The notes under the pieces were generated by a model, which was not told where the DNA came from, did not search any database, and saw only the letters and a program-made list of their open reading frames with translations. The position numbers were made by a program, and so were the translations under genes. From positions 12,630,869 to 12,694,868 of the forward strand of contig OU452209.1 in NCBI GenBank assembly GCA_911728435.2: a DNA stretch of 64,000 nt, read 5' to 3'. Shown here piece after piece: positions 13,020 through 53,749 of the stretch; positions within the stretch are counted from its first letter, which is position 1; the number at the start of each line of letters is the position of its first letter. This DNA comes from Apoderus coryli. Lineage: Eukaryota; Arthropoda; Insecta; Coleoptera; Attelabidae.

Positions 13020-13079
13020 TTAACATTATTAGAAACAAAGAAATTAAATAAACTAACTTGTACGAATTAAAACAAATTC

Positions 13080-13552: not shown

Positions 13553-13640
13553 GAAATTTTTTTAACTCGTACAAGTTAGTTTATTTCATTTCTTATTATA
13601 TCGATGATATACTATACGCTGTCAACTTAGTTAAATATTA

Positions 13641-19475: not shown

Positions 19476-19515
19476 AAAGAAGAACAAACAACTTTTTAGT
19501 TGTTTGTTCTTCTTT
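19476..19515. repeat. Perfect 18-bp palindrome
   Basis: Arms 19476-19493 and 19498-19515 are exact inverted copies (AAAGAAGAACAAACAACT) around a four-T loop. In the second RepB locus the corresponding sequence occurs once, not inverted. Confidence 0.9.
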
Positions 19516-19524
19516 AGTAAATTC

Positions 19525-19608
19525 AGTAATTTTGCATTACTTTAATACAGAGTAATAAAGCTTATTTTTAAGCTTTATTACTCTGTATTGAAGTAATGCA
19601 AAATTACT
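19525..19608. repeat. 40-bp palindrome
   Basis: Arms 19525-19564 and 19569-19608 are inverted copies with one mismatch, around a four-base loop. The arm sequence (TTTTGCATTACTT..ATACAGA.TAATAAAGCTTA) exists in single copy at the RepB copy near 37945-37985. The two palindromes bracket a flipped segment. Confidence 0.9.
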
Positions 19609-29410: not shown

Positions 29411-29463
29411 CAGACAAAAACAATAATATGATAATATTCTCAAAAATACCATACAGCAATATA

Positions 29464-29828
29464 CAGGGTGGTCCAACGAAAAGTTTGCACCTAGCTTTTC
29501 TCTTTTTTTTGTAGTCGAATGCGAAAATGCTCGGACACGTCGATTTTGCTTTTGAGGGGGACACATTTTAAACATATTTTTCGATCTGCGCCTTTAACCC
29601 CCTAGCGGGGGTGAGTAACAACCCTAAAATTTTAAATGGAAAGAGGGGTCTAATGACATATCATTTGAAAGGACACAAAATTGTCTTTCTAATGATACCC
29701 TATTTGTCGAATTTTACTAAAACAGTTAATACGAAAACGACTTTAAAGACATTAAGCCGATAATTTTGGTATTAATGAGAAATACAAATAAGTTTTAATT
29801 ATTGCGAGTGAAAACACCTGCAATCGTT
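29464..29828 (+). repeat. Left TIR of the DD41D transposon
   Basis: This is the 365-bp inverted counterpart of 31186-31550. It begins at CAGGGTGG after a TA target dinucleotide and lies downstream of the transposase gene. Confidence 0.92.
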
Positions 29829-29907
29829 AGTACATTCCAATGTTTGTTAGTTTTAACATTGCTTTGTAAAAAAAGTAAACAAGCTGTTAAATTGATTTAT
29901 TAAAACG

Positions 29908-30981
29908 TTACATTAACAAATGTTGAAAATGTGACCCATTTGATTCCATACAATAATACAGATTTTGTTCAAATCTATTTCTAACATTTTGTAGCATATC
30001 AGGTGTTATGTTTCTGCACTCTTCTGTAATGCGTTGGCGAAGATCTTCTATGGACTCGGGCTTCGTGGCAAAACATTTATTTTTTAAGTGCCCCCAAAGA
30101 AAAAAGTCTAAAGGCGATAAATCCGGTGACCTGGCAGGCCATTCAATTGGGCCCCTCCTTCCAATCCACCGTCCAGGGAACCGGTCATCTAAGAACTGTC
30201 TTACAGGAGCCACATAGTGCGGAGGTGCTCCATCTTGCTGGAAATAAAGCCGATCAGCAGTATGATTTTGGTCATCTTCTATTATTTGTGTTATTAAAGG
30301 ATCAATTGTGTCTTCAAGCATGTTTAGGTACACTTCACCAGTTAAATTTCCAGGAATAAAAAGTGGTCCTATAATATGATTTCCTAATATGCCACACCAG
30401 ACGTTTATTTTTTGAGGATACTGGGTATGAACCTCACGGAATAAATGTGGGTTACTGTCATCCCAGTAACGGCAATTGTGCCTATTTACAGCTCCATTCA
30501 AATAAAATGTGCATTCGTCGGAAAAACAAATGTTAAATAATAATTGCGGATCTTCAATTAAACGCTGGCTCATTGCTTCACAAAATTGCAGCCTTCTATC
30601 AGGATCATCCTCATTTAGTTCCTGTACTAATTTGATTTTGTACGGATGAAATTTGTACGCTTTTAAAATTCGTATTATGGACGAACGGGAGACACCTGAG
30701 GCTTCAGCTAGTTGACGGGTACTTTGACTATGATCCATTTCAACATGCCCTAAAACAGCGACTTCCACAGCTTCATTTCTGATCGGTTTCTGCGGCTGGT
30801 GTTTTACATTACAGACAGATCCGGTATCTACAAACTTTTTAACTAACTTGCCAACGTACACATCATTCACATTTTTATCGGGATGTCTCTCATTAAATAA
30901 GCGAGCCGTAAGTCTAGCACTACTATTATTTTGAAAATAAAGTTTAACAATTTCAACTCGTTCTAGAATGGAATAAATCAT
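29908..30981 (-). CDS. DD41D transposase (DUF4817-type N-terminus), intact
   Basis: The protein is 357 residues from the ATG at 30981. The frame stays open 13 codons further up, but the first codon there is TTG, so I chose the first ATG. An N-terminal helix-turn-helix reads ERVEIVKLYFQN..SARLTARLF (about residues 7-30). A second reads STRQLAEASGVSRSSIIRIL (87-106). Catalytic Asp residues are in FSDECTFYLNG (155), YFQQDGAPPHY (250) and SPDLSPLDFFLWG (292), with 41 residues between the second and third. It should bind the TIRs and cut and paste the element in the nucleus. No stop or frameshift is present. Confidence 0.92.
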   Translation of the reverse strand: MIYSILERVEIVKLYFQNNSSARLTARLFNERHPDKNVNDVYVGKLVKKFVDTGSVCNVKHQPQKPIRNEAVEVAVLGHVEMDHSQSTRQLAEASGVSRSSIIRILKAYKFHPYKIKLVQELNEDDPDRRLQFCEAMSQRLIEDPQLLFNICFSDECTFYLNGAVNRHNCRYWDDSNPHLFREVHTQYPQKINVWCGILGNHIIGPLFIPGNLTGEVYLNMLEDTIDPLITQIIEDDQNHTADRLYFQQDGAPPHYVAPVRQFLDDRFPGRWIGRRGPIEWPARSPDLSPLDFFLWGHLKNKCFATKPESIEDLRQRITEECRNITPDMLQNVRNRFEQNLYYCMESNGSHFQHLLM

Positions 30982-31185
30982 TTTGTACGGTAAAAGTAAA
31001 ATAACTTGAGAAGCAACCAAACTGAATCAATGAAAAGACTAAAATAAACGGTGTAAATTCTTTTCCTACACGTATCTGCAGTTTTTATTTCAACAAAAAA
31101 CGCAAACGATTAGTGAGGAATTTAGTTCTGATAAATAAGATAGTGTTTTTGAAATCCCGTTTTTCTTCAAAGTAAATAATTTAGA

Positions 31186-31550
31186 AATGATTGTAGTTGT
31201 TTTCAGTCGTAATAATTAAAACTTATTTGTATTTCTCATTAATACCAAAATTATCGGCTTAATGTCTTTAAAGTCGTTTTCGTATTAACTGTTTTAGTAA
31301 AATTCGACAAATAGGGTATCATTAGAAAGACAATTTTGTGTCCTTTCAAATGATATGTCATTAGACCCCTCTTTCCATTTAAAATTTTAGGGTTGTTACT
31401 CACCCCCGCTAGGGGGTTAAAGGCGCAGATCGAAAAATATGTTTAAAATGTGTCCCCCTCAAAAGCAAAATCGACGTGTCCGAGCATTTTCGCATTCGAC
31501 TACAAAAAAAAGAGAAAAGCTAGGTGCAAACTTTTCGTTGGACCACCCTG
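31186..31550 (-). repeat. Right TIR of the DD41D transposon
   Basis: This is the inverted counterpart of the left TIR. It lies upstream of the transposase, so it would be expected to contain the promoter. No obvious TATA box was singled out. Confidence 0.92.
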
Positions 31551-31655
31551 TATGTAACGAATTGGCACTTAGACGGTTTTCCCTGTAATTGTTTACCGAA
31601 ATTGAAAATATCAATTGAAGCGTGGAAACACCTTAGCCGGTCTTGAATTTCCACG

Positions 31656-35020: not shown

Positions 35021-35500
35021 TTATATAAATTACTCAATTTGTGGACTAGACTCGTTTTATTAAAGTAAAATAATTTCTCGGATTTAGAAACATATGAGCA
35101 TGATAAGCCAACTTAATAATTAATTCTATACAGTGACTGATTCGACAAAATGAAATTTTTAAGTCAATCACAGCAGATATATATAGGTGATTTGTATCAA
35201 TAATTGTTTCTAACACCTCATGGGTAACACAAGCTTTATTAGTTTCTTGGGTGAGTTAGTTTATACGCATTTATCTCTGTCTTTATATTTATTTGTCACT
35301 ATAGAGTTTTGTTTCCAACAGTAACTTTTCTTAAAGTTTTTGTTGGCGTTAAAGGATTACCTTTTAAAGTTTTGAAAGTTCAGCTGTTATTCTTTGGGTG
35401 CTGTTGTCCTTTTCTGTGCTATTTACCTGTAGGATAATACATATGGGATAATATAGAAATTATCCGCATGCAAATTGTTTGGTTTTTAATCATTACAAAA

Positions 35501-35533
35501 CTGCGACGTTTCACAAGCTTGCTTTATCGGCAC
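35501..35533 (-). other. Hammerhead-like relic (Penelope-style motif)
   Basis: On the minus strand the order is TGC, CCGATAA, AAGCAAGCTTG, TGAAAC, GTC, GCA. This matches the hammerhead layout (CTGATGA, stem II, GAAAC, GTC) with two changes in the invariant box and no stem III. The copy in unit 2 is at 44697-44729. I regard it as a decayed or lineage-variant motif only. Confidence 0.3.
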
Positions 35534-36483
35534 TTCTTCAAACATTTGTTTATTTAAGATTTGTGGAAAAATTAGAACTATAAGAAATACAAAATGTCTA
35601 GCTGTTTACTATTAATAATAATAATGAAAATTATTATAATTTTGTGGCGTAGCGCACAAATAATAATAATAATCATGGTACCTGATGTCTGATGAACCTA
35701 GGCAAATCGTTCGTCGTCTTAAATCTAGTTATTTAAAGCTCCCAAATTCGAAAATTGTAGGTCATTTGTATCCATTGCCTCCAACGATGTTTCTTCAGAG
35801 TATTATAATAATAATAGTTACTCATTATAATTTTGATCTAGTTAGGGACATTTAAGCTCCCTAATTCAAGCAACAACGCTGCTAAATTTCAAAGAAATCG
35901 GTAATGAAATATTTGACTTACACAAAAAAAAACTTTTACACCTTGTATCTTGGAGAAACAATGCATTTCCGGACATATGTTTATGGGAACTTGTTTTCGT
36001 AAAATGACCTGAGAAATAATCCTGTTAAATATTGCCGCGTCTTTTTTAGCCACCCTGATTTCATGGCGTCTCTAATGATGCTGCAGCTTCGATATTCGCC
36101 AGGCATGATCTTGAGTACCTTTCTCTGTTCCCACAAAATTAAGAAAACCTTAAACAGTTGCCCTTGTACAAGTATCATAAATTAATGATTTCGAGGATTG
36201 GAAGATGCATGAGCATACGTATCTTCTAATAACGTTGTATTAAAACGGACGAGCAATGGAATTTACTGTTGTCCGGCCCTGTGGCTATGTCTGAGTTTTA
36301 TGGTTTATATTAGTTTGGGAATATTATTTAAGTAGATTGTACACAAATGTTCTAAACTCAGTCATAAAATTCAAGGGTATGTTTTCTATTTATCTTATCT
36401 TCCTTTGATATGGGTTTTACAACATCTACAAGTATTATCTTTGCCTAAACGAATTGTTAGGTACCTAAAAAAAAAACAACCTT

Positions 36484-36905
36484 GAGAGAGAGATGTTTTT
36501 GGCGACACCTAGCGTGAACAGGCAATATGCCGGGTGAAACACAGTTCACAAACGATGGCCGGACAAGAAGTAACAACTCCATTATATCCTATTGCCAACA
36601 CTAGATGCGCCCGAATCCCCAAGCAGGGAGGCTCTATTTAAGAATTGCTTGTTACATAAAGCAACAAGACTTTAAGTTATGTTGGAAATTTGTTTCACAC
36701 TACCTTCTACCACTAAACTTAAGAATCAATTCTCGTGCTAGTATAAGCTCTTTGTAAATGTTGGAAATTTGGGTCACACTGCCTGCCGATCACCACTGAT
36801 GAGTCGTGGATCGACGAAACGGCCGTCTGGTGAAAGCATGGTAGTGTGAAACAAATTTCCAACATAACTTAAAATCTTGTTGCTTTATGTAACAAGCAAT
36901 TCTTA
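36484..36905 (+). mobile_element. 422-bp insertion with a hammerhead ribozyme and 66-bp inverted arms
   Basis: AAAACAACCTT flanks both sides (36473-36483 and 36906-36916), an 11-bp target duplication. Inside are about 155 bp of unique sequence, an arm at 36639-36704, about 135 bp of core, and an inverted arm at 36840-36905 with one mismatch. A third, direct partial copy of the arm lies at 36757-36783. The core holds the ribozyme. RepB copy 1 near 20395 lacks this insertion, giving an approximate empty-site comparison. Variable target duplications, inverted partial terminal copies and hammerheads are known in Penelope-like elements, so a non-autonomous relative is the best guess. Confidence 0.85.
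36791..36832 (+). ncRNA. Type I hammerhead ribozyme, copy 1
   Basis: Every conserved part is present: stem I CACCA (36791-36795) with TGGTG (36828-36832), CTGATGA (36796-36802), stem II GTCG/CGAC (36803-36806 and 36812-36815) with loop TGGAT, GAAA (36816-36819), stem III within the self-complementary ACGGCCGT (36819-36826), and cleavage after GTC at 36827. A second stem I helix (TGC/GCA) follows beyond an internal loop. A further pairing of about 25 bases (36757-36781 with 36842-36867) extends it. Stem III is too short for a stable monomer but would pair perfectly between two copies, as known for minimal hammerheads of Penelope-like elements and retrozymes. It should self-cleave the element's RNA. 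Confidence 0.9.
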
Positions 36906-38469
36906 AAAACAACCTTTTTTATTATTCGAAGAATGACATGTTGGAAATACCGGGTGGTCTAAACACTCAAAACCATCGATATATCTTCATGCAACATTTT
37001 TTATTATATACAAAAAGCTAGTTGGAAGGCGTCACGGTTTCCCATATCAAAATAATATATATAACGGGCGCATAAAAAATTATGGGTTTTTGTCCAGTCG
37101 CGTACTCCAAACTTAAGAATCTTTATTAAAGTCGACATACAAATAAAAATGTATCTTATTTTGTAATGTTCTCACCCTGTAAATGTATTTGGGTATATAT
37201 TGTAAATACCTTTTTTTTTCTGATTGGTTTATTTTTATTTTGTATTGCCTACAATGTAACTTTTATGAGGCAATTCTGGAAAGGCAAAAGGACTTTGAGA
37301 TTAGAATGGTTCTAGCCTTGATTGAGTAACGTCGTGCTTTCTCTAGTTGTAAAAAGGTTAAATGAAATATTTTAATTTGTTTTTGGACTTGGTATAATTT
37401 TCAGTCAAGAATTATTTTCTAGTTTTTTTTCATGTTTTAAAGTATCTGTATAAAGACTGAGTCCATTGCTTTCTCATTCTGAAGTAGTAAATTGTATAAA
37501 GTTCCGTAAGTTTTGATATTCTTTTAATTGAAGGCCTTTTTGTTTAATCAGTTTTTATTATATAAAGTTTAAAGTTATTTCTTTTAGTAATTGAAATAAA
37601 TTCCGTTTTCAATAGTATATTAAAGTTTCGTATTATTATTAATTAATATAATTATTCAATATTATATTAATTTTCCTATTTTTAAGTAGTACAAGTAATA
37701 ACTACGATTTTCTTCTAAATTTCCATTATCGCTTAATTGTTATTCTCTTTCTTTAATTTATACATATTTATTTCTTGTTGTTATTCATTTTCTTTAATTA
37801 GTTTTAATTATTCAATTAGTTGATTTTAGCCCACAAACTTTGTGTTTTATTTCTAATAAAGTTTTCGATAAATTATTGACAAAAGGGTCAACCAATTAAA
37901 TATTTTCTTTTAAATAAAAGTGATTCAAGATTATAATGGTAAGTAATTTTGCATTACTTCAATACAGATTAATAAAGCTTATTTTAGTTGTTTGTTTGTT
38001 TCATATAATAATTTGATTCTGTTATTATTCAAGATGATATTCTTTGTTTGTTCTTCTTTATTTGAAACCGCTCGTAAAACTTGAAGCGAACCCGTAACAA
38101 TTTGAATAGCATATTGGGGTTCATTCGGATTGAGCTATAACATTAGTATTAGTAGTAGTACATAACACCCGCTAATTCCGAAATGGTTACAACGTTATTA
38201 ATAACGCATACGTATTTATCGACACAGAATAACTATTGTTCGAACCCTGAGGAGCCTCACATTACCAATGACATTTTGTGAGTGATGTCTATGATATGGC
38301 CAGTGAGATACATTTCTACAAACATTATAAATAATATAAAACACAATGTTATAATAATCTCCCAATGAAAATCCGGACCGATAGTACTAAAAGTTACAGA
38401 AACCTAGGCATAGAATAAACTGGTTTTTCTTATAATTTGTTTAGAACCCACCAGTATCATCCCTATTAT

Positions 38470-38660
38470 ATTAAAAAAATAGTATATCATTATTAATCGG
38501 CCATAAAAAGTTGGTTATCATCGATCTATACCGCTCTCCATTTACAGTAACGGTGTTACCATCATCATTTTGAAAGAAGTACGGACCGATGATGCCACCA
38601 GTCCAAAAACCAGACCAAACTGTCAATTTAGGTGAATATAAGGGTTTTTCACGAATAATT
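38470..38660 (-). pseudogene. DUF4817-type transposase relic D
   Basis: The minus strand reads LTVWSGFWTGGIIGPYFFQ, then NDDGNTVTVNGERYRSMITN and FLWP. This is the block between the first and second catalytic Asp in this family, and relic A shows a variant of it (GGVIGPFFFENA). Neither Asp is included. Unit 2 counterpart: 47667-47857. Confidence 0.65.
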
Positions 38661-39763
38661 TACGAGTATGAGCGTTTGCAGTATGAGACGCAGTCCAGCA
38701 ACAACTAGTGGGAAAGAAAAATCCGCATTACAATGTACTACATTTTCAAATTATGATTGACCAATATAATAAAGGCATTTAAAGACAGTCGTAGATAAAA
38801 TAAATTTTTGTTATTTGTTAAGCACACCTCGTAAGTCGTAAGGAATTTTCATCTATCCACATCAAATCAATTTTAGTAATGAATAATATCCTAAAAAACT
38901 TATGAGAGAACACATATTTTTCCCTCAAAGTTACACCAATTCTCTATTGGATTCTATCACTGCTTGGCAATCTTTTTATGATTCAATTTCGCTAGAATTG
39001 GCAAATACAATCAATGACTTAAAGAAGTGGATTGCTCTTCCATGTGGAAAATACAAATTAAATTTTATGTAGTCGATTCAGACGATTACACGAAAAATCA
39101 TTTTAACCAGTTAATTGGCTATCAGACAACGTCGCCTGTTTAAATTTCACTATAATTTATAGTGACAATTTAAGACCAGAGTAATTGGGAATTACCACGG
39201 TAAATTAATTTTATGCAGATTGTTGCTTTCCGTTAGTTGCTACAATAGCTGCACTAAATTACACAATAGGAAATACACAGGCTTCATTTGCATCGGTGGA
39301 ATTGAAGTATAAATCAAAAAATTATGAATCCGTTATTGTTTCTGGAGATTAAAGTATCACAAACTCTCATGAACTTAAATCCAGTTATTCTGATCCAGTA
39401 CAAAAATTAAAAATTTCTCAATATCCAAACTATGTCATGGAAAGAAGTAATATTAATAATAATAATTCAGTACATCAGTTTGTACATTGGCACTTCAGAC
39501 TTCACAAAGTTTAAAATCTAGTAAGATCCAAATCGGGATCTACATATAGGTAATATGTTAAAATAAAACAGAAAACTTGCACAGTGCATTTACATTTAAA
39601 AAAATACTGAGTAATGTTGACGTATACAAAAGTTAAAGAGCTGAGCAATGGTCAACGAACTCATCAACTGAGTAGAAACAGTTGGTAATCAAAAAAGATT
39701 TGAGTTTCCTCTTGAAGATGCTCAACGCCTGCTCAGATCTAATGAACCGTGGTAGAATGTTAT
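38661..39763. other. Unassigned DNA with one short open segment
   Basis: The frame around 38902-39069 reads REHIFFPQSYTNSLLDSITA, then WQSFYDSISLELANTINDLK, and stops. It looks protein-like but I cannot assign it. The rest shows no gene. Unit 2 counterpart: 47858-48960. Confidence 0.3.
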
Positions 39764-41316
39764 AATAATAATAATCTCTTTATTGTCTAACAGGTATTTC
39801 TACCCAATAACAAGACAAAATCTTACATAAACAAAAACAATTGCCTAACATTAGCATACAAAAATACCCAACTTAGAACTAACATAAAACTAACTGAAAA
39901 ATAGAAAAAAGGAAATACACGCACCAAAACGAAAGAAAATTGGGAGGATTACAAGAACAATTAATAATAACAATAAATAATTAACACATGAACATAATTC
40001 ATCAACACAAATCCAAATCAGTATCCCACAAACATGTCTCTAAACTTTTCTTAAAAGAACCAAGCGATACATTAAAAAAATCAACGTTTTCATTAATAAC
40101 TAATCGGTTGCTGTACTTACACGCCCGAAATAGCGGTGCTTAGATTCATAATTAGAACGAATCTGTGGCACCCAAAATAAACTAGCGCTTCTAGACAGAA
40201 CCCTAGGGACACGAAACCATAGCTGCTGAAGCAACCGAGGACAATCCAACATATTGTTGACCAACTTAAAAAGAAAGATCTCAGACGCGAAGATGCGTCT
40301 CTCGGCTAACGGCCGTAATTCGAACTTTGTCAGTAACAGGTCGTGATCACACCCACGAGGAGGAAAATATCCATCAATTTTAAATGACAAATATTTTCAA
40401 AACTTACGTTGGATACTCTCCAATCTTCTGTATATGAACACGGTAGATCGGCGACCAAATGATTGTAGCGAATTCCAAAATAGACACAACGAAGGCGAAA
40501 TAGAGACTTTTCAGGCAGTCCATGTTGTTGAGTTCTCTGGTCTGTCTAAAAATAAATCCTAACATTCGCAAAGCATTAGCAGAAACTTGCTCAATGTGGT
40601 AGTTGAAAGATAAATCACCATCCAAGTATACACCAAGATCTTTGATTAAAGCGCAGCGTTCCAAATTTGACTTATCGATGGTGTAGTTTCGCAAAAACGG
40701 ATCTTGACGTCTTGTAAATGTCACCGACTTACAATTGTTCAGATTTAGAGGAAGTCTATTTAGAAAACACCATTCTGAGAGCCGACACAGATCTGTTTGA
40801 AGCTGTGCGCAATTGTTCTCACAAACAACAGTGATATAAAATTTTAAATCAGACGCAAACAACAAATAATTGCTATTGAAACCAGAGCCAATATCGTTTA
40901 CGAATATTGCAACGAGAAGAGGAGCCAACGTACGGCCCTGCGGAGTTCCACTTGAGGCTGTGAATGAATTTGAACTGAATCCATTGTATTCAACAAATTG
41001 TTGCCTTGCTCCCAGATAGGACTGAAAAAAAGATATCAGATTCCTGCCGAAGCCAATGTCGCACATCTTCTGTTGAATCAGGGAATGAGCAATCTTATCG
41101 AACGCCTTGGAAAAGTCAGTATAGATTGCGTCGACTTGCAAACCTCGACCGACAGCTGGAATTACATCCTGCAGGAAAGTGGTTAGATTGGTCACCGTAG
41201 AACGACCCTTAATGAACCCATGTTGCTGGTAAACTAGCCTACGTTTTATTTGCCCAAATAATTTATTGTGCAGAGCAATTTCAAAAACCTTTGCGAAATT
41301 AGGAAGAATTGATTAT
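39764..41316 (-). mobile_element. LINE with altered RT box (FASD), unit 1
   Basis: This is a minus-strand LINE, 5'-truncated at about 41316. It reads ILPNFAKVFEIALHNKLF and YQQHGFIKGRST before the RT core. Motif A is AIYTDFSKAFDK, then SSGTPQGRTLAPLLVAIFVNDI. The catalytic box is FASD instead of F/YADD (113-116 of the frame at 40404-41195), which should abolish polymerase activity. The thumb and LEFATIIWSPIYRVHIQKI follow. A frameshift near 40395 moves the C-terminus into another frame (40100-40390). The 3' end is a (TTA)n tail at 39764. The unit 2 copy is the same apart from a C/T change. Confidence 0.85.
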
Positions 41317-41504
41317 AATAATATAAGCGCGCCTCATGCCGAGGCCTAGGCAGAAGGAGTTGGATGTGAGTTGAATGTGTTTACAAACAAAAACAGTTGA
41401 TTATGATACAGACTGACACTTTTTCATTAAGCGGTGCTTATTTTACCGTTAATAGTTGTAAAATTGTCAGTTGAAGTAAACAATTGTTTTATTTTATATT
41501 TAAA
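41317..41504. other. Short flank between LINE and Tc1 fragment
   Basis: No gene was recognised. It is probably the 5' untranslated part of the Tc1 fragment that follows. Confidence 0.3.
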
Positions 41505-41636
41505 ATGCCTTATGTGGGGTTATCCGACATCCAAAGGGGAAGAGTAGCTGCTGTGGACGAGCAAGGTATGCCACAGAGGGAGATCGCAATGATTGTAGAT
41601 GTTTCACAAGGGGTCGTTTCGAAAACTTTTTTTTAG
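41505..41636 (+). pseudogene. Tc1-like transposase N-terminus
   Basis: A 43-codon frame reads MPYVGLSDIQRGRVAAVDEQ, GMPQREIAMIVDVSQGVVSK, then a stop. This is the first helix-turn-helix of Tc1-family transposases. It is the N-terminal counterpart of the relic at 6840-7452. The catalytic domain is missing. Unit 2 counterpart: 50702-50833. Confidence 0.75.
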
Positions 41637-41999
41637 AGCTACAAACTTTCAAAAGTAGGCCGAGGAAAAGTAGGCATGGAATATCAGGATAGATTTCTAG
41701 CCCAAATCGTATATGAAAAGCAGCATGTAGTAGTCATTTGGAAAAATATAAAAGGTGATTCTTTTAAGCCGCGCTCGCCTTCCCGTCCGCAATGACTATT
41801 CTGCAAAATTCGCGAATGCACAGCTCGGACGCAGGGTGGACGCGCCTTTACGTGTCAAAATTAGATCTATAGGAATAGCCTATAAATGACAACCAATCTG
41901 AGGTGAGCAGTCGTTGCAAATTAGGTTGTTTACGTATTCGATTAACCTATAAATTATACCCAAAATGACTTAATTTACATCACTTTTACAGAGCGAAAT

Positions 42000-42490
42000 G
42001 ATGAATCTTCTCCACAACACTGAGCTTACTACAACAACGTTGAGACCTGTCCATCAAGCAGCTGCTGATCAGCCTGGATGTTCCCATTGGAATATACAGC
42101 AAACAGTAGAAGTCCGTGTTTTCAACTAATTCAACGGGAATACAAAAAACCAAGAATCTTCCGAAGAAAAGTCATGTCTTCGCAACACCGAAAAAGAAGA
42201 CATAACTCCTGCAAAAATTTTAGACTTAATATGCCCAGTCCCCAAGATTACACACATTGCCAAGAGGAAACTGCAGAGCAGTAGGGATAGAAAACCAGGT
42301 TACAACAAGCATAAAGAATGAAAATAAATGCAGGAACAAAAGTCAGGTGGAAAAAAAAACACCACCACACCATAGAAGAATGGGAAGAGACTGATTGTGC
42401 TGGCTGTGGGGAGAATTTTAACATCACAAACAAGGCAGATGATTGGATTCAATGTAGGTATTCGAAGTTCCCGATAGCTCAATGAATCAT
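42000..42490 (+). pseudogene. Pogo-like transposase C-terminus
   Basis: With frame changes the region reads EKEDITPAKILDLICPVPKI, AKRKLQSSRDRKPGY, then EEWEETDCAGCGENFNITNK and DDWIQCRYSKF. A serine/proline-rich linker with an ITP..I...PVPK motif, a basic stretch and a terminal CxxC...W.QC zinc motif is the usual tail of pogo/Tigger-type transposases in insects. The last zinc ligands (W.HE.C) are lost. No catalytic domain remains. Unit 2 counterpart: 51197-51687. Confidence 0.6.
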
Positions 42491-42766
42491 ACTTAAAATA
42501 TGAAAATATGCGCGAAAGATATGGAAGAAAGGCATCCAACAACTGTTCATCTCTCCCATAGTGGTCCATCTATACCGCATATAAAGGGAAAGTTTTATAA
42601 CGAATTTCTTATAATTTTATATATTTTTGTATATAGTTACCATTAGTATATATTTATTAAAATGTTTGTAATGTCAACTCTTTTATTTCAACCGATCGAT
42701 TCTTAAAGAATTTGTAGTCAAATCTAAAAAGGAGGTCCATCTCTTCCGGAGTTACCCTACCTTGTA

Positions 42767-43096
42767 AGAGGGTTGCCTTTTATATTTCGGGATTTGGTAA
42801 CCCTGGTGTTGCAATCTGGCAACTGACAGCTCTATCGTAAAGTTGGACATTTTTGAGGTTACACGTACTCAGAACGTTTTGACATACGAGCGCTATTTGT
42901 GTTGTTTACAGTAACTTAAAAGATTCATCTCGGCCCAAAATGGAATTAAATCGTGAACATTTTCGTGCGATTATTTTATACAACTTTCGACATCAATTAA
43001 CTCAGCAACAGTGCATGGATGAACTTAATTCAATTTTTGGCGATGAAGCTCCATCAAGGACCAGTGTTTATCGATGATGTAACGAAGTTACTAAAT
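42767..43096 (+). pseudogene. Mariner (DD34D) 5' part, interrupted by an LTR element
   Basis: The 5' TIR begins at 42767 after TA, with GAGGGTTGCCTTTTATATTT, the inverse of the 3' end at 54659-54686. The start codon at 42940 opens MELNREHFRAIILYNFRHQL and FGDEAPSRTSVYR, the mariner N-terminal helix-turn-helix. The next codon, normally Trp, is TGA (43075). Mariner sequence stops at 43096, where an LTR begins. The rest of a mariner of the same family starts near 53750. Unit 2 counterpart: 51964-52293. Confidence 0.75.
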
Positions 43097-43195
43097 TGTA
43101 TATATTTTATTATTTGCCCCGGCCGACTTAACGACATAGTGGGTATTTGCTCCGTCCTGCTAGCGTTCATAACAGGCCCCACTCCCGCGGTGGGG

Positions 43196-43203
43196 TATAA
43201 AAG
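43196..43203 (+). promoter_or_regulatory. TATA box of the LTR
   Basis: TATAAAAG lies in a short GC-rich context. A TTCAATG start-like motif lies about 17-20 bases downstream of its end, at a spacing compatible with transcription start. Unit 2 counterpart: 52393-52400. Confidence 0.6.
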
Positions 43204-43321
43204 AGCCAGCCGTTCAATGCAAACGGGACTCTGCACTCGAGCGCCGAACAGAGAACATCTACCTACAGCAGTAGTAGAGTAAGTTCACAGTCAGTGCAGT
43301 GTCGTACCAGTGTAGGTAGCG

Positions 43322-44235
43322 GTGGGAAGCCCTGCGTAGGCGGACATCTCACCCCTGCTTAATACACGCCAAACTCCGGTATCGGTTGGGAGCCCTGCGT
43401 AGGCGGACACCCAGCTTATGCTGTCAGTGGCGTACTGGTGTACCGAACCGGTGTGATACCAGTGTGGGTAGCGGTGGGAAGCCCTGCGTAGGCGGACATC
43501 TCACCCCTGCTTAATACAAGCCGAACTCCGGTATCGGTTGGGAGCCCTGCGTAGGCCGACACCCAGCCTATGCTGGCAGTGGTGCACTGGTTGTTCACCC
43601 TGTAGTACCGAACCAGTGTGGGTAGCGGTGGGAGGCCCTGCGTAGGCGGACGTCTCACCCCTGCTTAATACACACCGAACTCCGGTATCGGTTGGGAGCC
43701 CTGCGTAGGCGGACACCCGGCCTATGCTGGCAGTGGTGCACTGGTTGTTCCCCCTGTAGTACCGAACCAGTGTGGGTAGCGGTGGGAGGCCCTGCGTAGG
43801 CGGACACCCAGCCTGTGCTGGCAGTGGTGCACTGGTTGTTTCACCCTGTACCGAACCAGCGTGGGTAGCGGTGGGAAGCCCTGCGTAGGCGGACATCTCA
43901 CCCCTGCTTAATACACGCCGAACTCCGGTATCGGTTGGGAGCCCTGCGTAGGCGGACACCCAGCCTATGCTGGCAGTGGTGCACTGGTTGTTTCACCCTG
44001 TACCGGACCAGTGTGGTAGCAGTGGGAAGCCCTGCGTAGGCGGACAAACGTCAAACTGCGGTATTGGTGGGGAGCCCTGCGTAGGCGGACACCCGACCTC
44101 TACTGCCAGTGGCGTACCTGGTCATTCTGCGGTAGCGGTGGGAAGCCACGCGTAGGCGGACATTTCACTCCTGCTGCAGAGCGCCGAACTTGAGGATCTG
44201 GTGGAGAGCCCTGCGTAGGCGGACGCTTCACCTTT
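43322..44235 (+). repeat. Array of about 13 GCCCTGCGTAGGCGGAC cores
   Basis: The 17-base core GCCCTGCGTAGGCGGAC, with one or two changes in a few copies, occurs near 43328, 43391, 43480, 43544, 43632, 43697, 43790, 43875, 43945, 44028, 44072, 44149 and 44210. It is preceded by GG(T)GGGA. Two spacer classes alternate: one with CTCACCCCTGCTTAATACA and one with CCTATGCTGGCAGTGG. Spacers vary in length and sequence more than the core. Unit 2 has lost one copy by a 46-bp deletion. Long open frames across the array are by-products. Confidence 0.9.
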
Positions 44236-45680
44236 TCTGCCAGTAGCGTGACTCCCGTCCGAAAGTAGACCGTATCTTAGTATATAGAAAGGCCGAGTTC
44301 TCAGAGGTTTCCGCAAATCACACCGTCACCCCCTTATATTGTTCCCGTTTATATTGTTCATTTATAATTATTTATTTTACTTTTCTTTATTGTATATATT
44401 AGAGTAAATAAATGAAAGTTTAATTTGTACCGACTCTGTTATTCAACCAGCTCTCAAAACTTGACCCCTGGTATAATAATTTCTTCGGCTAACTGCCCGG
44501 AGCAATACAGTGTTGTGTAACTTTTCTTAAAGTTTTTGTTGGCGTTAAAGGATTACCTTTTAAAGTTTTGAAAGTTCAGCTGTTATTCTTTGGGTGCTGT
44601 TGTCCTTTTCTGTGCTATTTACCTGTAGGATAATACATATGGGATAATATAGAAATTATCCGCATGCAAATTGTTTGGTTTTTAATCATTACAAAACTGC
44701 GACGTTTCACAAGCTTGCTTTATCGGCACTTCTTCAAACATTTGTTTATTTAAGATTTGTGGAAAAATTAGAACTATAAGAAATACAAAATGTCTAGCTG
44801 TTTACTATTAATAATAATAATGAAAATTATTATAATTTTGTGGCGTAGCGCACAAATAATAATAATAATCATGGTACCTGATGTCTGATGAACCTAGGCA
44901 AATCGTTCGTCGTCTTAAATCTAGTTATTTAAAGCTCCCAAATTCGAAAATTGTAGGTCATTTGTATCCATTGCCTCCAACGATGTTTCTTCAGAGTATT
45001 ATAATAATAATAGTTACTCATTATAATTTTGATCTAGTTAGGGACATTTAAGCTCCCTAATTCAAGCAACAACGCTGCTAAATTTCAAAGAAATCGGTAA
45101 TGAAATATTTGACTTACACAAAAAAAAAACTTTTACACCTTGTATCTTGGAGAAACAATGCATTTCCGGACATATGTTTATGGGAACTTGTTTTCGTAAA
45201 ATGACCTGAGAAATAATCCTGTTAAATATTGCCGCGTCTTTTTTAGCCACCCTGATTTCATGGCGTCTCTAATGATGCTGCAGCTTCGATATTCGCCAGG
45301 CATGATCTTGAGTACCTTTCTCTGTTCCCACAAAATTAAGAAAACCTTAAACAGTTGCCCTTGTACAAGTATCATAAATTAATGATTTCGAGGATTGGAA
45401 GATGCATGAGCATACGTATCTTCTAATAACGTTGTATTAAAACGGACGAGCAATGGAATTTACTGTTGTCCGGCCCTGTGGCTATGTCTGAGTTTTATGG
45501 TTTATATTAGTTTGGGAATATTATTTAAGTAGATTGTACACAAATGTTCTAAACTCAGTCATAAAATTCAAGGGTATGTTTTCTATTTATCTTATCTTCC
45601 TTTGATATGGGTTTTACAACATCTACAAGTATTATCTTTGCCTAAACGAATTGTTAGGTACCTAAAAAAAAAACAACCTT

Positions 45681-46102
45681 GAGAGAGAGATGTTTTTGGC
45701 GACACCTAGCGTGAACAGGCAATATGCCGGGTGAAACACAGTTCACAAACGATGGCCGGACAAGAAGTAACAACTCCATTATATCCTATTGCCAACACTA
45801 GATGCGCCCGAATCCCCAAGCAGGGAGGCTCTATTTAAGAATTGCTTGTTACATAAAGCAACAAGACTTTAAGTTATGTTGGAAATTTGTTTCACACTAC
45901 CTTCTACCACTAAACTTAAGAATCAATTCTCGTGCTAGTATAAGCTCTTTGTAAATGTTGGAAATTTGGGTCACACTGCCTGCCGATCACCACTGATGAG
46001 TCGTGGATCGACGAAACGGCCGTCTGGTGAAAGCATGGTAGTGTGAAACAAATTTCCAACATAACTTAAAATCTTGTTGCTTTATGTAACAAGCAATTCT
46101 TA
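45681..46102 (+). mobile_element. 422-bp ribozyme insertion, unit 2 copy
   Basis: Identical as far as I can see to 36484-36905, with the same flanking AAAACAACCTT repeats. It arose through the segmental duplication, not by a new insertion. Confidence 0.85.
45988..46029 (+). ncRNA. Type I hammerhead ribozyme, copy 2
   Basis: Same sequence and fold as the copy at 36791-36832; all invariant bases are kept. The cleavage site is after position 46024. Confidence 0.9.
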
Positions 46103-48960
46103 AAAACAACCTTTTTTATTATTCGAAGAATGACATGTTGGAAATACCGGGTGGTCTAAACACTCAAAACCATCGATATATCTTCATGCAACATTTTTTA
46201 TTATATACAAAAAGCTAGTTGGAAGGCGTCACGGTTTCCCATATCAAAATAATATATATAACGGGCGCATAAAAAATTATGGGTTTTTGTCCAGTCGCGT
46301 ACTCCAAACTTAAGAATCTTTATTAAAGTCGACATACAAATAAAAATGTATCTTATTTTGTAATGTTCTCACCCTGTAAATGTATTTGGGTATATATTGT
46401 AAATACCTTTTTTTTTCTGATTGGTTTATTTTTATTTTGTATTGCCTACAATGTAACTTTTATGAGGCAATTCTGGAAAGGCAAAAGGACTTTGAGATTA
46501 GAATGGTTCTAGCCTTGATTGAGTAACGTCGTGCTTTCTCTAGTTGTAAAAAGGTTAAATGAAATATTTTAATTTGTTTTTGGACTTGGTATAATTTTCA
46601 GTCAAGAATTATTTTCTAGTTTTTTTTCATGTTTTAAAGTATCTGTATAAAGACTGAGTCCATTGCTTTCTCATTCTGAAGTAGTAAATTGTATAAAGTT
46701 CCGTAAGTTTTGATATTCTTTTAATTGAAGGCCTTTTTGTTTAATCAGTTTTTATTATATAAAGTTTAAAGTTATTTCTTTTAGTAATTGAAATAAATTC
46801 CGTTTTCAATAGTATATTAAAGTTTCGTATTATTATTAATTAATATAATTATTCAATATTATATTAATTTTCCTATTTTTAAGTAGTACAAGTAATAACT
46901 ACGATTTTCTTCTAAATTTCCATTATCGCTTAATTGTTATTCTCTTTCTTTAATTTATACATATTTATTTCTTGTTGTTATTCATTTTCTTTAATTAGTT
47001 TTAATTATTCAATTAGTTGATTTTAGCCCACAAACTTTGTGTTTTATTTCTAATAAAGTTTTCGATAAATTATTGACAAAAGGGTCAACCAATTAAATAT
47101 TTTCTTTTAAATAAAAGTGATTCAAGATTATAATGGTAAGTAATTTTGCATTACTTCAATACAGATTAATAAAGCTTATTTTAGTTGTTTGTTTGTTTCA
47201 TATAATAATTTGATTCTGTTATTATTCAAGATGATATTCTTTGTTTGTTCTTCTTTATTTGAAACCGCTCGTAAAACTTGAAGCGAACCCGTAACAATTT
47301 GAATAGCATATTGGGGTTCATTCGGATTGAGCTATAACATTAGTATTAGTAGTAGTACATAACACCCGCTAATTCCGAAATGGTTACAACGTTATTAATA
47401 ACGCATACGTATTTATCGACACAGAATAACTATTGTTCGAACCCTGAGGAGCCTCACATTACCAATGACATTTTGTGAGTGATGTCTATGATATGGCCAG
47501 TGAGATACATTTCTACAAACATTATAAATAATATAAAACACAATGTTATAATAATCTCCCAATGAAAATCCGGACCGATAGTACTAAAAGTTACAGAAAC
47601 CTAGGCATAGAATAAACTGGTTTTTCTTATAATTTGTTTAGAACCCACCAGTATCATCCCTATTATATTAAAAAAATAGTATATCATTATTAATCGGCCA
47701 TAAAAAGTTGGTTATCATCGATCTATACCGCTCTCCATTTACAGTAACGGTGTTACCATCATCATTTTGAAAGAAGTACGGACCGATGATGCCACCAGTC
47801 CAAAAACCAGACCAAACTGTCAATTTAGGTGAATATAAGGGTTTTTCACGAATAATTTACGAGTATGAGCGTTTGCAGTATGAGACGCAGTCCAGCAACA
47901 ACTAGTGGGAAAGAAAAATCCGCATTACAATGTACTACATTTTCAAATTATGATTGACCAATATAATAAAGGCATTTAAAGACAGTCGTAGATAAAATAA
48001 ATTTTTGTTATTTGTTAAGCACACCTCGTAAGTCGTAAGGAATTTTCATCTATCCACATCAAATCAATTTTAGTAATGAATAATATCCTAAAAAACTTAT
48101 GAGAGAACACATATTTTTCCCTCAAAGTTACACCAATTCTCTATTGGATTCTATCACTGCTTGGCAATCTTTTTATGATTCAATTTCGCTAGAATTGGCA
48201 AATACAATCAATGACTTAAAGAAGTGGATTGCTCTTCCATGTGGAAAATACAAATTAAATTTTATGTAGTCGATTCAGACGATTACACGAAAAATCATTT
48301 TAACCAGTTAATTGGCTATCAGACAACGTCGCCTGTTTAAATTTCACTATAATTTATAGTGACAATTTAAGACCAGAGTAATTGGGAATTACCACGGTAA
48401 ATTAATTTTATGCAGATTGTTGCTTTCCGTTAGTTGCTACAATAGCTGCACTAAATTACACAATAGGAAATACACAGGCTTCATTTGCATCGGTGGAATT
48501 GAAGTATAAATCAAAAAATTATGAATCCGTTATTGTTTCTGGAGATTAAAGTATCACAAACTCTCATGAACTTAAATCCAGTTATTCTGATCCAGTACAA
48601 AAATTAAAAATTTCTCAATATCCAAACTATGTCATGGAAAGAAGTAATATTAATAATAATAATTCAGTACATCAGTTTGTACATTGGCACTTCAGACTTC
48701 ACAAAGTTTAAAATCTAGTAAGATCCAAATCGGGATCTACATATAGGTAATATGTTAAAATAAAACAGAAAACTTGCACAGTGCATTTACATTTAAAAAA
48801 ATACTGAGTAATGTTGACGTATACAAAAGTTAAAGAGCTGAGCAATGGTCAACGAACTCATCAACTGAGTAGAAACAGTTGGTAATCAAAAAAGATTTGA
48901 GTTTCCTCTTGAAGATGCTCAACGCCTGCTCAGATCTAATGAACCGTGGTAGAATGTTAT

Positions 48961-50513
48961 AATAATAATAATCTCTTTATTGTCTAACAGGTATTTCTAC
49001 CCAATAACAAGACAAAATCTTACATAAACAAAAACAATTGCCTAACATTAGCATACAAAAATACCCAACTTAGAACTAACATAAAACTAACTGAAAAATA
49101 GAAAAAAGGAAATACACGCATCAAAACGAAAGAAAATTGGGAGGATTACAAGAACAATTAATAATAACAATAAATAATTAACACATGAACATAATTCATC
49201 AACACAAATCCAAATCAGTATCCCACAAACATGTCTCTAAACTTTTCTTAAAAGAACCAAGCGATACATTAAAAAAATCAACGTTTTCATTAATAACTAA
49301 TCGGTTGCTGTACTTACACGCCCGAAATAGCGGTGCTTAGATTCATAATTAGAACGAATCTGTGGCACCCAAAATAAACTAGCGCTTCTAGACAGAACCC
49401 TAGGGACACGAAACCATAGCTGCTGAAGCAACCGAGGACAATCCAACATATTGTTGACCAACTTAAAAAGAAAGATCTCAGACGCGAAGATGCGTCTCTC
49501 GGCTAACGGCCGTAATTCGAACTTTGTCAGTAACAGGTCGTGATCACACCCACGAGGAGGAAAATATCCATCAATTTTAAATGACAAATATTTTCAAAAC
49601 TTACGTTGGATACTCTCCAATCTTCTGTATATGAACACGGTAGATCGGCGACCAAATGATTGTAGCGAATTCCAAAATAGACACAACGAAGGCGAAATAG
49701 AGACTTTTCAGGCAGTCCATGTTGTTGAGTTCTCTGGTCTGTCTAAAAATAAATCCTAACATTCGCAAAGCATTAGCAGAAACTTGCTCAATGTGGTAGT
49801 TGAAAGATAAATCACCATCCAAGTATACACCAAGATCTTTGATTAAAGCGCAGCGTTCCAAATTTGACTTATCGATGGTGTAGTTTCGCAAAAACGGATC
49901 TTGACGTCTTGTAAATGTCACCGACTTACAATTGTTCAGATTTAGAGGAAGTCTATTTAGAAAACACCATTCTGAGAGCCGACACAGATCTGTTTGAAGC
50001 TGTGCGCAATTGTTCTCACAAACAACAGTGATATAAAATTTTAAATCAGACGCAAACAACAAATAATTGCTATTGAAACCAGAGCCAATATCGTTTACGA
50101 ATATTGCAACGAGAAGAGGAGCCAACGTACGGCCCTGCGGAGTTCCACTTGAGGCTGTGAATGAATTTGAACTGAATCCATTGTATTCAACAAATTGTTG
50201 CCTTGCTCCCAGATAGGACTGAAAAAAAGATATCAGATTCCTGCCGAAGCCAATGTCGCACATCTTCTGTTGAATCAGGGAATGAGCAATCTTATCGAAC
50301 GCCTTGGAAAAGTCAGTATAGATTGCGTCGACTTGCAAACCTCGACCGACAGCTGGAATTACATCCTGCAGGAAAGTGGTTAGATTGGTCACCGTAGAAC
50401 GACCCTTAATGAACCCATGTTGCTGGTAAACTAGCCTACGTTTTATTTGCCCAAATAATTTATTGTGCAGAGCAATTTCAAAAACCTTTGCGAAATTAGG
50501 AAGAATTGATTAT
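48961..50513 (-). mobile_element. LINE with altered RT box (FASD), unit 2
   Basis: Copy of 39764-41316 including the FASD box, the frameshift near 49592 and the (TTA)n tail. One base differs in the 3' untranslated part. Confidence 0.85.
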
Positions 50514-52293
50514 AATAATATAAGCGCGCCTCATGCCGAGGCCTAGGCAGAAGGAGTTGGATGTGAGTTGAATGTGTTTACAAACAAAAACAGTTGATTA
50601 TGATACAGACTGACACTTTTTCATTAAGCGGTGCTTATTTTACCGTTAATAGTTGTAAAATTGTCAGTTGAAGTAAACAATTGTTTTATTTTATATTTAA
50701 AATGCCTTATGTGGGGTTATCCGACATCCAAAGGGGAAGAGTAGCTGCTGTGGACGAGCAAGGTATGCCACAGAGGGAGATCGCAATGATTGTAGATGTT
50801 TCACAAGGGGTCGTTTCGAAAACTTTTTTTTAGAGCTACAAACTTTCAAAAGTAGGCCGAGGAAAAGTAGGCATGGAATATCAGGATAGATTTCTAGCCC
50901 AAATCGTATATGAAAAGCAGCATGTAGTAGTCATTTGGAAAAATATAAAAGGTGATTCTTTTAAGCCGCGCTCGCCTTCCCGTCCGCAATGACTATTCTG
51001 CAAAATTCGCGAATGCACAGCTCGGACGCAGGGTGGACGCGCCTTTACGTGTCAAAATTAGATCTATAGGAATAGCCTATAAATGACAACCAATCTGAGG
51101 TGAGCAGTCGTTGCAAATTAGGTTGTTTACGTATTCGATTAACCTATAAATTATACCCAAAATGACTTAATTTACATCACTTTTACAGAGCGAAATGATG
51201 AATCTTCTCCACAACACTGAGCTTACTACAACAACGTTGAGACCTGTCCATCAAGCAGCTGCTGATCAGCCTGGATGTTCCCATTGGAATATACAGCAAA
51301 CAGTAGAAGTCCGTGTTTTCAACTAATTCAACGGGAATACAAAAAACCAAGAATCTTCCGAAGAAAAGTCATGTCTTCGCAACACCGAAAAAGAAGACAT
51401 AACTCCTGCAAAAATTTTAGACTTAATATGCCCAGTCCCCAAGATTACACACATTGCCAAGAGGAAACTGCAGAGCAGTAGGGATAGAAAACCAGGTTAC
51501 AACAAGCATAAAGAATGAAAATAAATGCAGGAACAAAAGTCAGGTGGAAAAAAAAACACCACCACACCATAGAAGAATGGGAAGAGACTGATTGTGCTGG
51601 CTGTGGGGAGAATTTTAACATCACAAACAAGGCAGATGATTGGATTCAATGTAGGTATTCGAAGTTCCCGATAGCTCAATGAATCATACTTAAAATATGA
51701 AAATATGCGCGAAAGATATGGAAGAAAGGCATCCAACAACTGTTCATCTCTCCCATAGTGGTCCATCTATACCGCATATAAAGGGAAAGTTTTATAACGA
51801 ATTTCTTATAATTTTATATATTTTTGTATATAGTTACCATTAGTATATATTTATTAAAATGTTTGTAATGTCAACTCTTTTATTTCAACCGATCGATTCT
51901 TAAAGAATTTGTAGTCAAATCTAAAAAGGAGGTCCATCTCTTCCGGAGTTACCCTACCTTGTAAGAGGGTTGCCTTTTATATTTCGGGATTTGGTAACCC
52001 TGGTGTTGCAATCTGGCAACTGACAGCTCTATCGTAAAGTTGGACATTTTTGAGGTTACACGTACTCAGAACGTTTTGACATACGAGCGCTATTTGTGTT
52101 GTTTACAGTAACTTAAAAGATTCATCTCGGCCCAAAATGGAATTAAATCGTGAACATTTTCGTGCGATTATTTTATACAACTTTCGACATCAATTAACTC
52201 AGCAACAGTGCATGGATGAACTTAATTCAATTTTTGGCGATGAAGCTCCATCAAGGACCAGTGTTTATCGATGATGTAACGAAGTTACTAAAT

Positions 52294-53660
52294 TGTATAT
52301 ATTTTATTATTTGCCCCGGCCGACTTAACGACATAGTGGGTATTTGCTCCGTCCTGCTAGCGTTCATAACAGGCCCCACTCCCGCGGTGGGGTATAAAAG
52401 AGCCAGCCGTTCAATGCAAACGGGACTCTGCACTCGAGCGCCGAACAGAGAACATCTACCTACAGCAGTAGTAGAGTAAGTTCACAGTCAGTGCAGTGTC
52501 GTACCAGTGTAGGTACACGCCAAACTCCGGTATCGGTTGGGAGCCCTGCGTAGGCGGACACCCAGCTTATGCTTTCAGTGGCGTACTGGTGTACCGAACC
52601 GGTGTGATACCAGTGTGGGTAGCGGTGGGAAGCCCTGCGTAGGCGGACATCTCACCCCTGCTTAATACAAGCCGAACTCCGGTATCGGTTGGGAGCCCTG
52701 CGTAGGCCGACACCCAGCCTATGCTGGCAGTGGTGCACTGGTTGTTCACCCTGTAGTACCGAACCAGTGTGGGTAGCGGTGGGAGGCCCTGCGTAGGCGG
52801 ACGTCTCACCCCTGCTTAATACACACCGAACTCCGGTATCGGTTGGGAGCCCTGCGTAGGCGGACACCCGGCCTATGCTGGCAGTGGTGCACTGGTTGTT
52901 CCCCCTGTAGTACCGAACCAGTGTGGGTAGCGGTGGGAGGCCCTGCGTAGGCGGACACCCAGCCTGTGCTGGCAGTGGTGCACTGGTTGTTTCACCCTGT
53001 ACCGAACCAGCGTGGGTAGCGGTGGGAAGCCCTGCGTAGGCGGACATCTCACCCCTGCTTAATACACGCCGAACTCCGGTATCGGTTGGGAGCCCTGCGT
53101 AGGCGGACACCCAGCCTATGCTGGCAGTGGTGCACTGGTTGTTTCACCCTGTACCGGACCAGTGTGGTAGCAGTGGGAAGCCCTGCGTAGGCGGACAAAC
53201 GTCAAACTGCGGTATTGGTGGGGAGCCCTGCGTAGGCGGACACCCGACCTCTACTGCCAGTGGCGTACCTGGTCATTCTGCGGTAGCGGTGGGAAGCCAC
53301 GCGTAGGCGGACATTTCACTCCTGCTGCAGAGCGCCGAACTTGAGGATCTGGTGGAGAGCCCTGCGTAGGCGGACGCTTCACCTTTTCTGCCAGTAGCGT
53401 GACTCCCGTCCGAAAGTAGACCGTATCTTAGTATATAGAAAGGCCGAGTTCTCAGAGGTTTCCGCAAATCACACCGTCACCCCCTTATATTGTTCCCGTT
53501 TATATTGTTCATTTATAATTATTTATTTTACTTTTCTTTATTGTATATATTAGAGTAAATAAATGAAAGTTTAATTTGTACCGACTCTGTTATTCAACCA
53601 GCTCTCAAAACTTGACCCCTGGTATAATAATTTCTTCGGCTAACTGCCCGGAGCAATACA
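52294..53660 (+). mobile_element. LTR of a retrotransposon, unit 2 (1,367 bp)
   Basis: Same termini (TGTAT..ATACA), TATA box and polyadenylation signal as the unit 1 LTR. One core repeat is missing through a 46-bp deletion. It is followed by leader sequence with a primer-binding-like site. Confidence 0.75.
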
Positions 53661-53749
53661 GTGTTGTCCTTTACACTTTAAAATAAAGGACTGGCGCCCG
53701 AGAAAACCGAACAGCACCGAAACCGACACTCAAGAAAGTAAAGCGCCAT
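53661..53749 (+). promoter_or_regulatory. LTR retrotransposon leader with primer-binding-like site
   Basis: Directly after the LTR comes a perfect 8-bp hairpin (GTCCTTTA / TAAAGGAC, 53666-53690), then TGGCGCCCGAG (53692-53702). TGGCGCCC is the complement of the 3' end of tRNA-Lys-type primers used by many LTR elements. The gap of 31 bases between LTR end and site is longer than usual. After about 90 bases the sequence turns into mariner DNA, so the internal region and second LTR appear to be deleted. Confidence 0.5.

Follow-up and report, generated by a model that had tools for sequence, protein, structure and literature searches.

Retrozyme insertions of Apoderus coryli end at two fixed sites and probably reflect a Penelope-type insertion reaction

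Introduction

Why does a hammerhead ribozyme lie twice within one stretch of a beetle genome, and which machinery brought it there? The window analysed here (64,000 bp of contig OU452209.1 from Apoderus coryli) raises both questions. A first-pass annotation had placed a canonical hammerhead with a palindromic stem III at 36791-36832 and a second copy at 45988-46029, and had connected the motif with Penelope-like elements (PLEs) and retrozymes.

Metazoan non-LTR retrozymes carry type I hammerheads with a short stem III in tandem monomers of 170-400 bp, are low in GC and lack LTRs (Cervera and de la Pena 2020, PMC7229834). Their RNA is predicted to be highly self-paired, and insects are among the named hosts (PMC7229834). 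Their repeats are described as having no conserved motif that reveals an autonomous mover, with PLEs or Terminons named as likely candidates (PMC7761336). For the PLE of the lizard Anolis, the purified protein PAc has been reported to cut and extend both strands, starting at two adjacent internal RNA sites; the tail of these elements corresponds to the sequence between the two start sites (PMC11167929). In the bdelloid Adineta vaga, PLEs form head-to-head copies with a tail on one of the two inverted ends (PMC3846280).

Results

The hammerhead and its second copy

Every piece of the hammerhead is present where it had been placed. Stem I pairs CACCA (36791-36795) with TGGTG (36828-36832) and is followed outward by a further helix, TCACACTGCC/GGTAGTGTGA. 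CTGATGA occupies 36796-36802, stem II is formed by GTCG/CGAC around the loop TGGAT, GAAA lies at 36816-36819, ACGGCCGT at 36819-36826 and the cleavage triplet GTC at 36825-36827, with cleavage predicted after C36827. A covariance-model search, which the first-pass annotation had suggested as a check, aligns Rfam Hammerhead_1 (RF00163) to 36790-36833 on the plus strand with 33.8 bits (E 9.6e-7). This is just below the gathering score of 34, which is why the hammerhead is not listed in a scan of the whole window at gathering scores. The core pattern occurs twice in the window and not once in 100 shuffles, and chance is thereby excluded. With the conserved core CUGANGA...GAAA...UH and three helices, open at stem I, the motif has the make-up of type I at a score 0.2 bits under the curated cut-off. 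Judged by its sequence, 36791-36832 is a real type I hammerhead, for which self-cleavage is predicted.

Stem III can form 2 bp (AC/GU) closed by a GGCC loop. In an axolotl ribozyme with an identical stem III and a weaker stem II, only 22% of the monomer was cut within an hour and the dimer performed better. The first-pass view of this stem as too short for a monomer hairpin, which would make the ribozyme work as a dimer, may or may not apply here. The minimum-energy fold of the 97-nt hammerhead region, as well as circular folds, yield a competing structure instead of the hammerhead; these predictions carry little weight, as such models are blind to tertiary contacts.

The second hammerhead is likewise present on the plus strand (core 45993-46024, with limits of 45987-46030 taken from identity with the first). 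It lies in the second unit of a 9.2-kb tandem duplication (35321-53667; units 35321-44516 and 44517-53667), with a length difference of about 45 bp between its units, located in GC-rich repeats. Over 7,999 bp, 35321-43318 and 44517-52515 are arranged head-to-tail and 99.975% identical, and the element and its target duplications are identical letter for letter between both units. The two hammerheads are therefore not independent evidence. The pair is one insertion copied by segmental duplication (or an assembly artefact) and not a ribozyme dimer. Thus, the existence of the second copy stood up, while its independence and a dimer arrangement did not.

The duplication, which looks recent, also includes a reverse transcriptase (RT) ORF on the minus strand (40404-41312 and 49601-50509) and GC-rich tandem repeats of 91/154/243 bp (43306-44046 and 52514-53197). 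Elsewhere in the window, 29461-31553 looks like a young DNA transposon: inverted repeats of ∼365 bp, 98.6-98.9% identical, enclose a stop-free, transposase-like ORF of 372 aa (29908-31026, minus) that has a DUF4817 helix-turn-helix match. This ORF and the RT ORFs, the transposon genes of the window, appear to be of insect type. Two inverted tRNA-like sequences, 13038-13207 and 13425-13594, are 93% alike over 170 bp including their flanks and possibly represent a tRNA-derived element; ARAGORN predicts one tRNA-Ala GGC at 13080-13153.

Retrozyme families in the genome

We searched the genome (428 Mb in 129 contigs) for related sequences. The hammerhead pattern occurs 6,915 times, compared with 12 for the reversed pattern, and the 32-nt ribozyme of the window has 3,014 matches with at most three mismatches, compared with 0 for its reversed pattern. 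The surrounding unit, which we call family A1, is non-coding and 336 bp long. A second family, A2, has a unit of 333 bp and shares the ribozyme with A1 (∼93% over 60 nt), the remainder being 62-71% alike in matched pieces. Retrozyme units measure 333-340 bp and are often arranged in tandem, with measured periods of 333, 336, 338 and 340; one locus (L026) has four head-to-tail copies with an inverted piece on their 5' side.

Several sequence hallmarks of animal retrozymes are found here. Type I hammerheads in tandem repeats of the ∼170-400-bp range occur in the genome, the window copy itself being a single unit. The GC content, determined for one genomic monomer per family, is 0.443 in A1 and 0.444 in A2, below the <45-50% typical of retrozymes. 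Target duplications exceed 4 bp, measuring 9-16 bp in 31 insertions (mostly 12-13 bp), and the targets are AT-rich. The insertions that were read are without direct long terminal repeats. In contrast, a unit of 333-340 bp is too short for the telomerase-like RT and GIY-YIG ORF that define a PLE. By these sequence features, the element is an animal-type (metazoan) non-LTR retrozyme and not itself a PLE; only its insertion reaction would be PLE-like. It resembles published metazoan non-LTR retrozymes in its type I hammerhead, short stem III, tandem monomers, low GC, predicted high self-pairing of the RNA and, in the insertions read, the absence of direct long terminal repeats. Plant LTR retrozymes share the hammerhead-processed circular RNA as a proposed transposition intermediate, but differ in having type III hammerheads, LTRs, 4-bp target duplications and Gypsy machinery (PMC4918200, PMC7229834).

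A second ribozyme family, B, was sampled only. It reads CTGATGATGG...CCGAAACATGTC with ACATGT as stem III and one additional base separating CTGATGA from stem II (L002, L004, L005, L047). L005 has two such hammerheads, one per arm of an inverted repeat (1434-1879, 95%), and L047 contains a relative within the 3' portion of a PLE fragment (704-735, minus).

Anatomy of the window insertion

Unit position 1 is taken as the first C of CTGATGA, which places the predicted cleavage after position 32. The retrozyme copy of the window is an insertion of 421 bp (36484-36904, minus) flanked by 12-bp target duplications, AAAAACAACCTT, at 36472-36483 and 36905-36916. It consists of two head-to-head arms. 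The left arm (36484-36704) has its sense strand on minus and runs from unit position 266 back to 45, with the outer end ...CTCTCTCTC(AA), here called P2. The right arm (36724-36904), with its sense on plus, runs from unit position 265 through the ribozyme to ∼110 and has the outer end ...CAAGCAATTCTT, here called P1. At the 5'-5' junction between them, 19 bp (36705-36723) have no match to the monomer. By identity of letters, the same insertion recurs at 45681-46101 (minus) in the second unit of the duplication, with target duplications at 45669-45680 and 46102-46113.

Together, the two arms span the retrozyme unit once, and the lone ribozyme sits in the plus-strand arm. Since one ribozyme cannot free a monomer from a longer transcript, the window copy looks unable to form circles on its own. 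A candidate empty site is found in a paralogous repeat (20331-20540, minus), which has 106 bp in place of the 536 bp of the window; removal of the element and one target duplication would leave 103 bp, and the aligned stretch is only 64% alike. The two paralogous repeats, 19384-20686 and 36235-38151, are ∼86% alike in matched pieces, and the former is without a retrozyme insertion.

Insertions end once at P1 and once at P2

The two outer ends of the window copy recur in other insertions of the genome. P1 lies at ∼110 in A1 and 106 in A2, P2 at ∼266 and 262, respectively. In A1, this is 78 nt and 234 nt past the predicted cut; the two sites lie inside the 336-nt unit and away from the cut. P1 and P2 are both sense 3' ends that point outward, the arms being joined head-to-head by their 5' parts, and arms that bear the ribozyme continue straight through the cleavage site.

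Each of the 32 insertions that are clearly double-armed and have target duplications of 9 bp or more (31 from one count and L094 from a further one) has one end at P1 and the other at P2, and family A2 agrees with this pattern as well. If each end were chosen independently, the probability of obtaining 31 out of 31 would be at most 4.7e-10. A broader tally, made by reading, covers 69 main insertions, with 38 double-armed copies bearing P1 and P2, 19 single-armed and 12 unclear. In the same order, the window contributes 1/0/0, the 28 loci picked by similarity to the window 20/4/4, a first sample of 20 insertions from contig C1 8/8/4 and a second sample of 20 loci from C1 9/7/4. Both C1 samples were taken from the lists of hammerhead-pattern and ribozyme matches in order along the contig; the first omitted loci with a variant loop, and the second omitted four multi-ribozyme clusters and one further locus. 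Among these 40 insertions picked without regard to similarity, 17 are double-armed and 15 single-armed, the latter kind being uninformative for the pairing of ends. L065, a near copy of L064, was dropped from the first C1 sample, and partial pieces in L013, L017, L026 and L030 were left uncounted. L031 (with a 7-nt arm), L037 and L038 (with low-complexity flanks) fit P1/P2 and were kept out of the 32.

Some copies sit less well with the rule. In L022 the ends are at 107 and 92, in L030 at 248 and 267; flanked by no target duplication of 8 bp or more, these two possibly have both ends near one and the same site and would then be exceptions. L084 fits poorly: its 11-nt left arm ends at P1, and an 11-bp flanking repeat would place the right end in sequence without a match, 50 nt beyond P1. 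The P2-side end of L096 is at 250, 12 nt short; in L024 and L027 only one end coincides with a site, the other having been eroded; and the P1 side of L064, which was counted as unclear, is ∼10 nt short.

Both sites can also be seen in genome-wide counts of exact 16-nt A1 anchors. At P1, 816 of 1,540 anchors continue for 8 more bases into the monomer, and at P2, where long tandem arrays inflate the number, 422 of 680 do so. For comparison, 1,466 of 1,609 continue at a control site just 5' of P1. Among the first 100 listed of the 3,014 ribozyme matches, neighbours within 1 kb are oriented -+ in 13 pairs and +- in none, with 19 pairs on the same strand.

In an array of ∼12.6 kb on contig C1 (19,274,656-19,287,208), known from its pattern positions alone, 19 P2 anchors on minus are followed by 19 on plus, spaced by 340 in both arms. 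All of these anchors continue except the rightmost, and the right end of the array therefore lies at P2. Only in the leftmost unit is the P1 anchor matched exactly, and there it is without continuation, which probably puts the left end at P1. That the two arms have this odd period in common suggests a single template circle or several circles of the same kind.

In 25 A1 insertions, the arms of one insertion differ at 2.7% of 3,681 shared positions, compared with 3.9% between insertions, and none of 2,000 shuffles was as low; 35 minority bases are common to both arms and 100 are not. The lower difference within insertions fits the copying of one RNA, and gene conversion within the inverted repeat would have the same effect.

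Penelope-like elements of the same genome share the asymmetry

GIY-YIG domains abound in this genome. Among 150 listed matches of 1,260 GIY-YIG candidates, all 18 pairs of neighbours within 5 kb are head-to-head (-+). We read five PLE insertions, all from head-to-head pairs: L077 and L078 in full, and three further copies of the L078 family at their ends only. The target duplications measure 14 bp in L077 and 12 bp in L078, and in each of the two a single end carries additional sequence, 25 or 34 nt long. The three family copies have a 33-35-nt tail at one end and none at the other, with duplications of 14, 13 and 14 bp. All five insertions thus have a tail of 25-35 nt at exactly one end and duplications of 12-14 bp. 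The protein encoded by L078 (element PLE78) contains RT and GIY-YIG domains; the frame of L077 gave no Pfam match at 0.001, though it spans a GIY-YIG match.

L078 and its three family copies carry CTGAGGATGCTAACATTGTTAGCGAAACGCGCGTC, a sequence that resembles a hammerhead core and includes a palindromic stem III; in L078 it lies 49 nt before the tailless start site. The order of parts is comparable, with ribozyme, first start site, tail and second start site in the PLE, and ribozyme, P1, folded domain and P2 in the retrozyme. CGCCAAA precedes P2 in most retrozyme copies and also occurs in the PLE78 tail, a possible connection that we regard as a lead only. No autonomous PLE with a start-site sequence clearly matching P1 or P2 was found, CGCCAAA being all that the PLE78 tail and the P2 box have in common, and BLAST returned no match between the retrozyme monomer and 20 GIY-YIG loci.

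Hammerhead-like cores of the form CTGAGGA...GAAACGCGCGTC lie at PLE 3' ends (L078 1058-1092 and 5763-5797; L099-L104), and CTGAGGA...GAAACGTC was seen by eye at the 3' ends of L077. Rfam reports none of the hammerhead-like PLE motifs at E<=1.

A hairpin between the two sites

The domain between P1 and P2 is predicted to fold into a branched hairpin (unit positions 138-247 in A1). Over 29 copies of A1 and A2, 98.6% of cells are consistent with the 28 pairs of this structure, and five pairs are changed on both sides. The covariation score is 0.231, compared with 0.156 in shuffles and at most 0.121 when the structure is slid along the alignment. Two controls speak less in its favour: five doubly changed pairs are also found in 36 of 500 shuffles, and further pair types number 16, fewer than the 19.5 of the shuffles. 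Most changes represent one difference each between the two families. In circular folds, P1 and P2 are unpaired and flank the hairpin in A1, and are partly paired in A2. The distance from P1 to P2 is ∼156 nt, or 46 nt with the hairpin left out; if the predicted fold forms, this spacing would be closer to the 25-35-nt tails of the PLEs.

Discussion

The window feature is, with a probability of roughly 0.8, a retrozyme copy inserted by a Penelope-type reaction in which each strand was primed at a different RNA site. Head-to-head copies with two internal start sites, one per end, were found in 32 of 32 retrozymes and in all five PLEs read. The connection drawn early on with PLEs and retrozymes thus held in both its parts: the hammerhead is the type I ribozyme of a retrozyme, and the insertions bear a Penelope-type signature.

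Could the inverted arms instead stem from a single cDNA that primed itself or switched template, and not from priming at both nicks? PLEs are mostly head-to-head with palindromes at their junctions, which have been read as self-priming (PMC3846280). However, a folded-back cDNA would be expected to copy the same end on both sides, and the outer ends differ in every double-armed retrozyme and PLE counted above. One tailed and one tailless end per PLE copy fits two-nick priming better, and we consider self-priming improbable.

Slightly less probable still is that a LINE moved the retrozyme and that the head-to-head copies reflect ordinary LINE twin priming. In twin priming, one end lies at the 3' end of the RNA or its poly(A), and the second start is at a variable internal site. 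The retrozyme ends are both fixed and internal and form a pair of one each, and no poly(A) tail is seen at them. The five PLE copies, to which the comparison of ends with other elements of this genome was confined, have the same asymmetry. What speaks for a LINE is that twin priming yields inverted, truncated copies with flanking target duplications (PMC2837659), and that some RT ORFs of the window lack a GIY-YIG match.

A foldback DNA transposon or MITE with a captured hammerhead is very unlikely: the window arms do form a 68-bp inverted repeat at 98.5%, and the insertion is flanked by a target duplication, but the outer ends are two different sequences and not terminal inverted repeats, the target duplications vary from 9 to 16 bp, the junctions differ between copies, and many copies are head-to-tail tandems of 333-340 bp.

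For the Penelope-type reaction, we propose the following course. Tandem copies would be transcribed, the hammerhead would cleave the RNA in which it lies, and the product would circularise at ∼336 nt, by analogy with published retrozymes (PMC7229834). We infer that the ribozyme is active. Both strands of an AT-rich target would be nicked 9-16 bp apart, as the target duplications suggest. One strand end would then prime at P1 and the other at P2 of the retrozyme RNA, in keeping with the end pairs, and the two cDNAs would be joined head-to-head by their 5' parts. Arms that cross the cleavage site and the constant periods of arrays point to the circle as the template, although uncut tandem RNA would also give arms crossing the cleavage site. 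The shared architecture suggests that the enzyme would be a PLE protein.

The likeness to PAc and to the PLEs of Adineta vaga covers the cutting and extension of both strands, internal start sites, a tail on one inverted end, AT-rich targets, short target duplications and a hammerhead near the start sites. The retrozyme differs from PLEs in having no ORF, in start sites ∼156 nt apart (25-35 nt in PLEs) with a folded domain between them, and in a ribozyme that scores as canonical type I, whereas PLE hammerheads are described as a minimal form. The greater spacing counts against a PLE-type reading, as do the single-armed copies (19 of 69 sampled, and 15 of 40 of those not chosen by similarity). 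In vitro, the start sites of PAc did not differ between the strands, and ribozyme mutants inserted normally, cleavage being unneeded there (PMC11167929). Moreover, two PLE types of one host showed no cross-mobilisation (PMC3846280).

Metazoan retrozymes have been published as head-to-tail dimers to multimers, and the word 'inverted' is absent from the accessible text of PMC7229834; here, 38 of 69 copies are head-to-head with two fixed ends. This two-end rule is the part of our findings that is new to us. We found no statement of it for retrozymes in literature listings or in the accessible parts of PMC7229834, PMC7761336, PMC11167929 and PMC3846280, a search with most subscription literature outside its scope.

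A more specific model, which we put forward tentatively and hold to be somewhat less likely than not to be correct in full, is that a dimer of the PLE enzyme would hold one retrozyme circle by the hairpin at 138-247, with P1 and P2 flanking its base. Each subunit would extend one target strand from its own site, so that the circle would be copied outward in both directions, sometimes for many rounds.

Taken together, the two-end rule provides a signature that bears on which machinery moves animal retrozymes and that is applicable to any genome with retrozymes. P1 and P2 are two RNA positions that can be checked directly in vitro. If the model is true, two-site, two-strand priming would be the normal reaction of PLEs, and retrozymes would be its minimal natural substrates.
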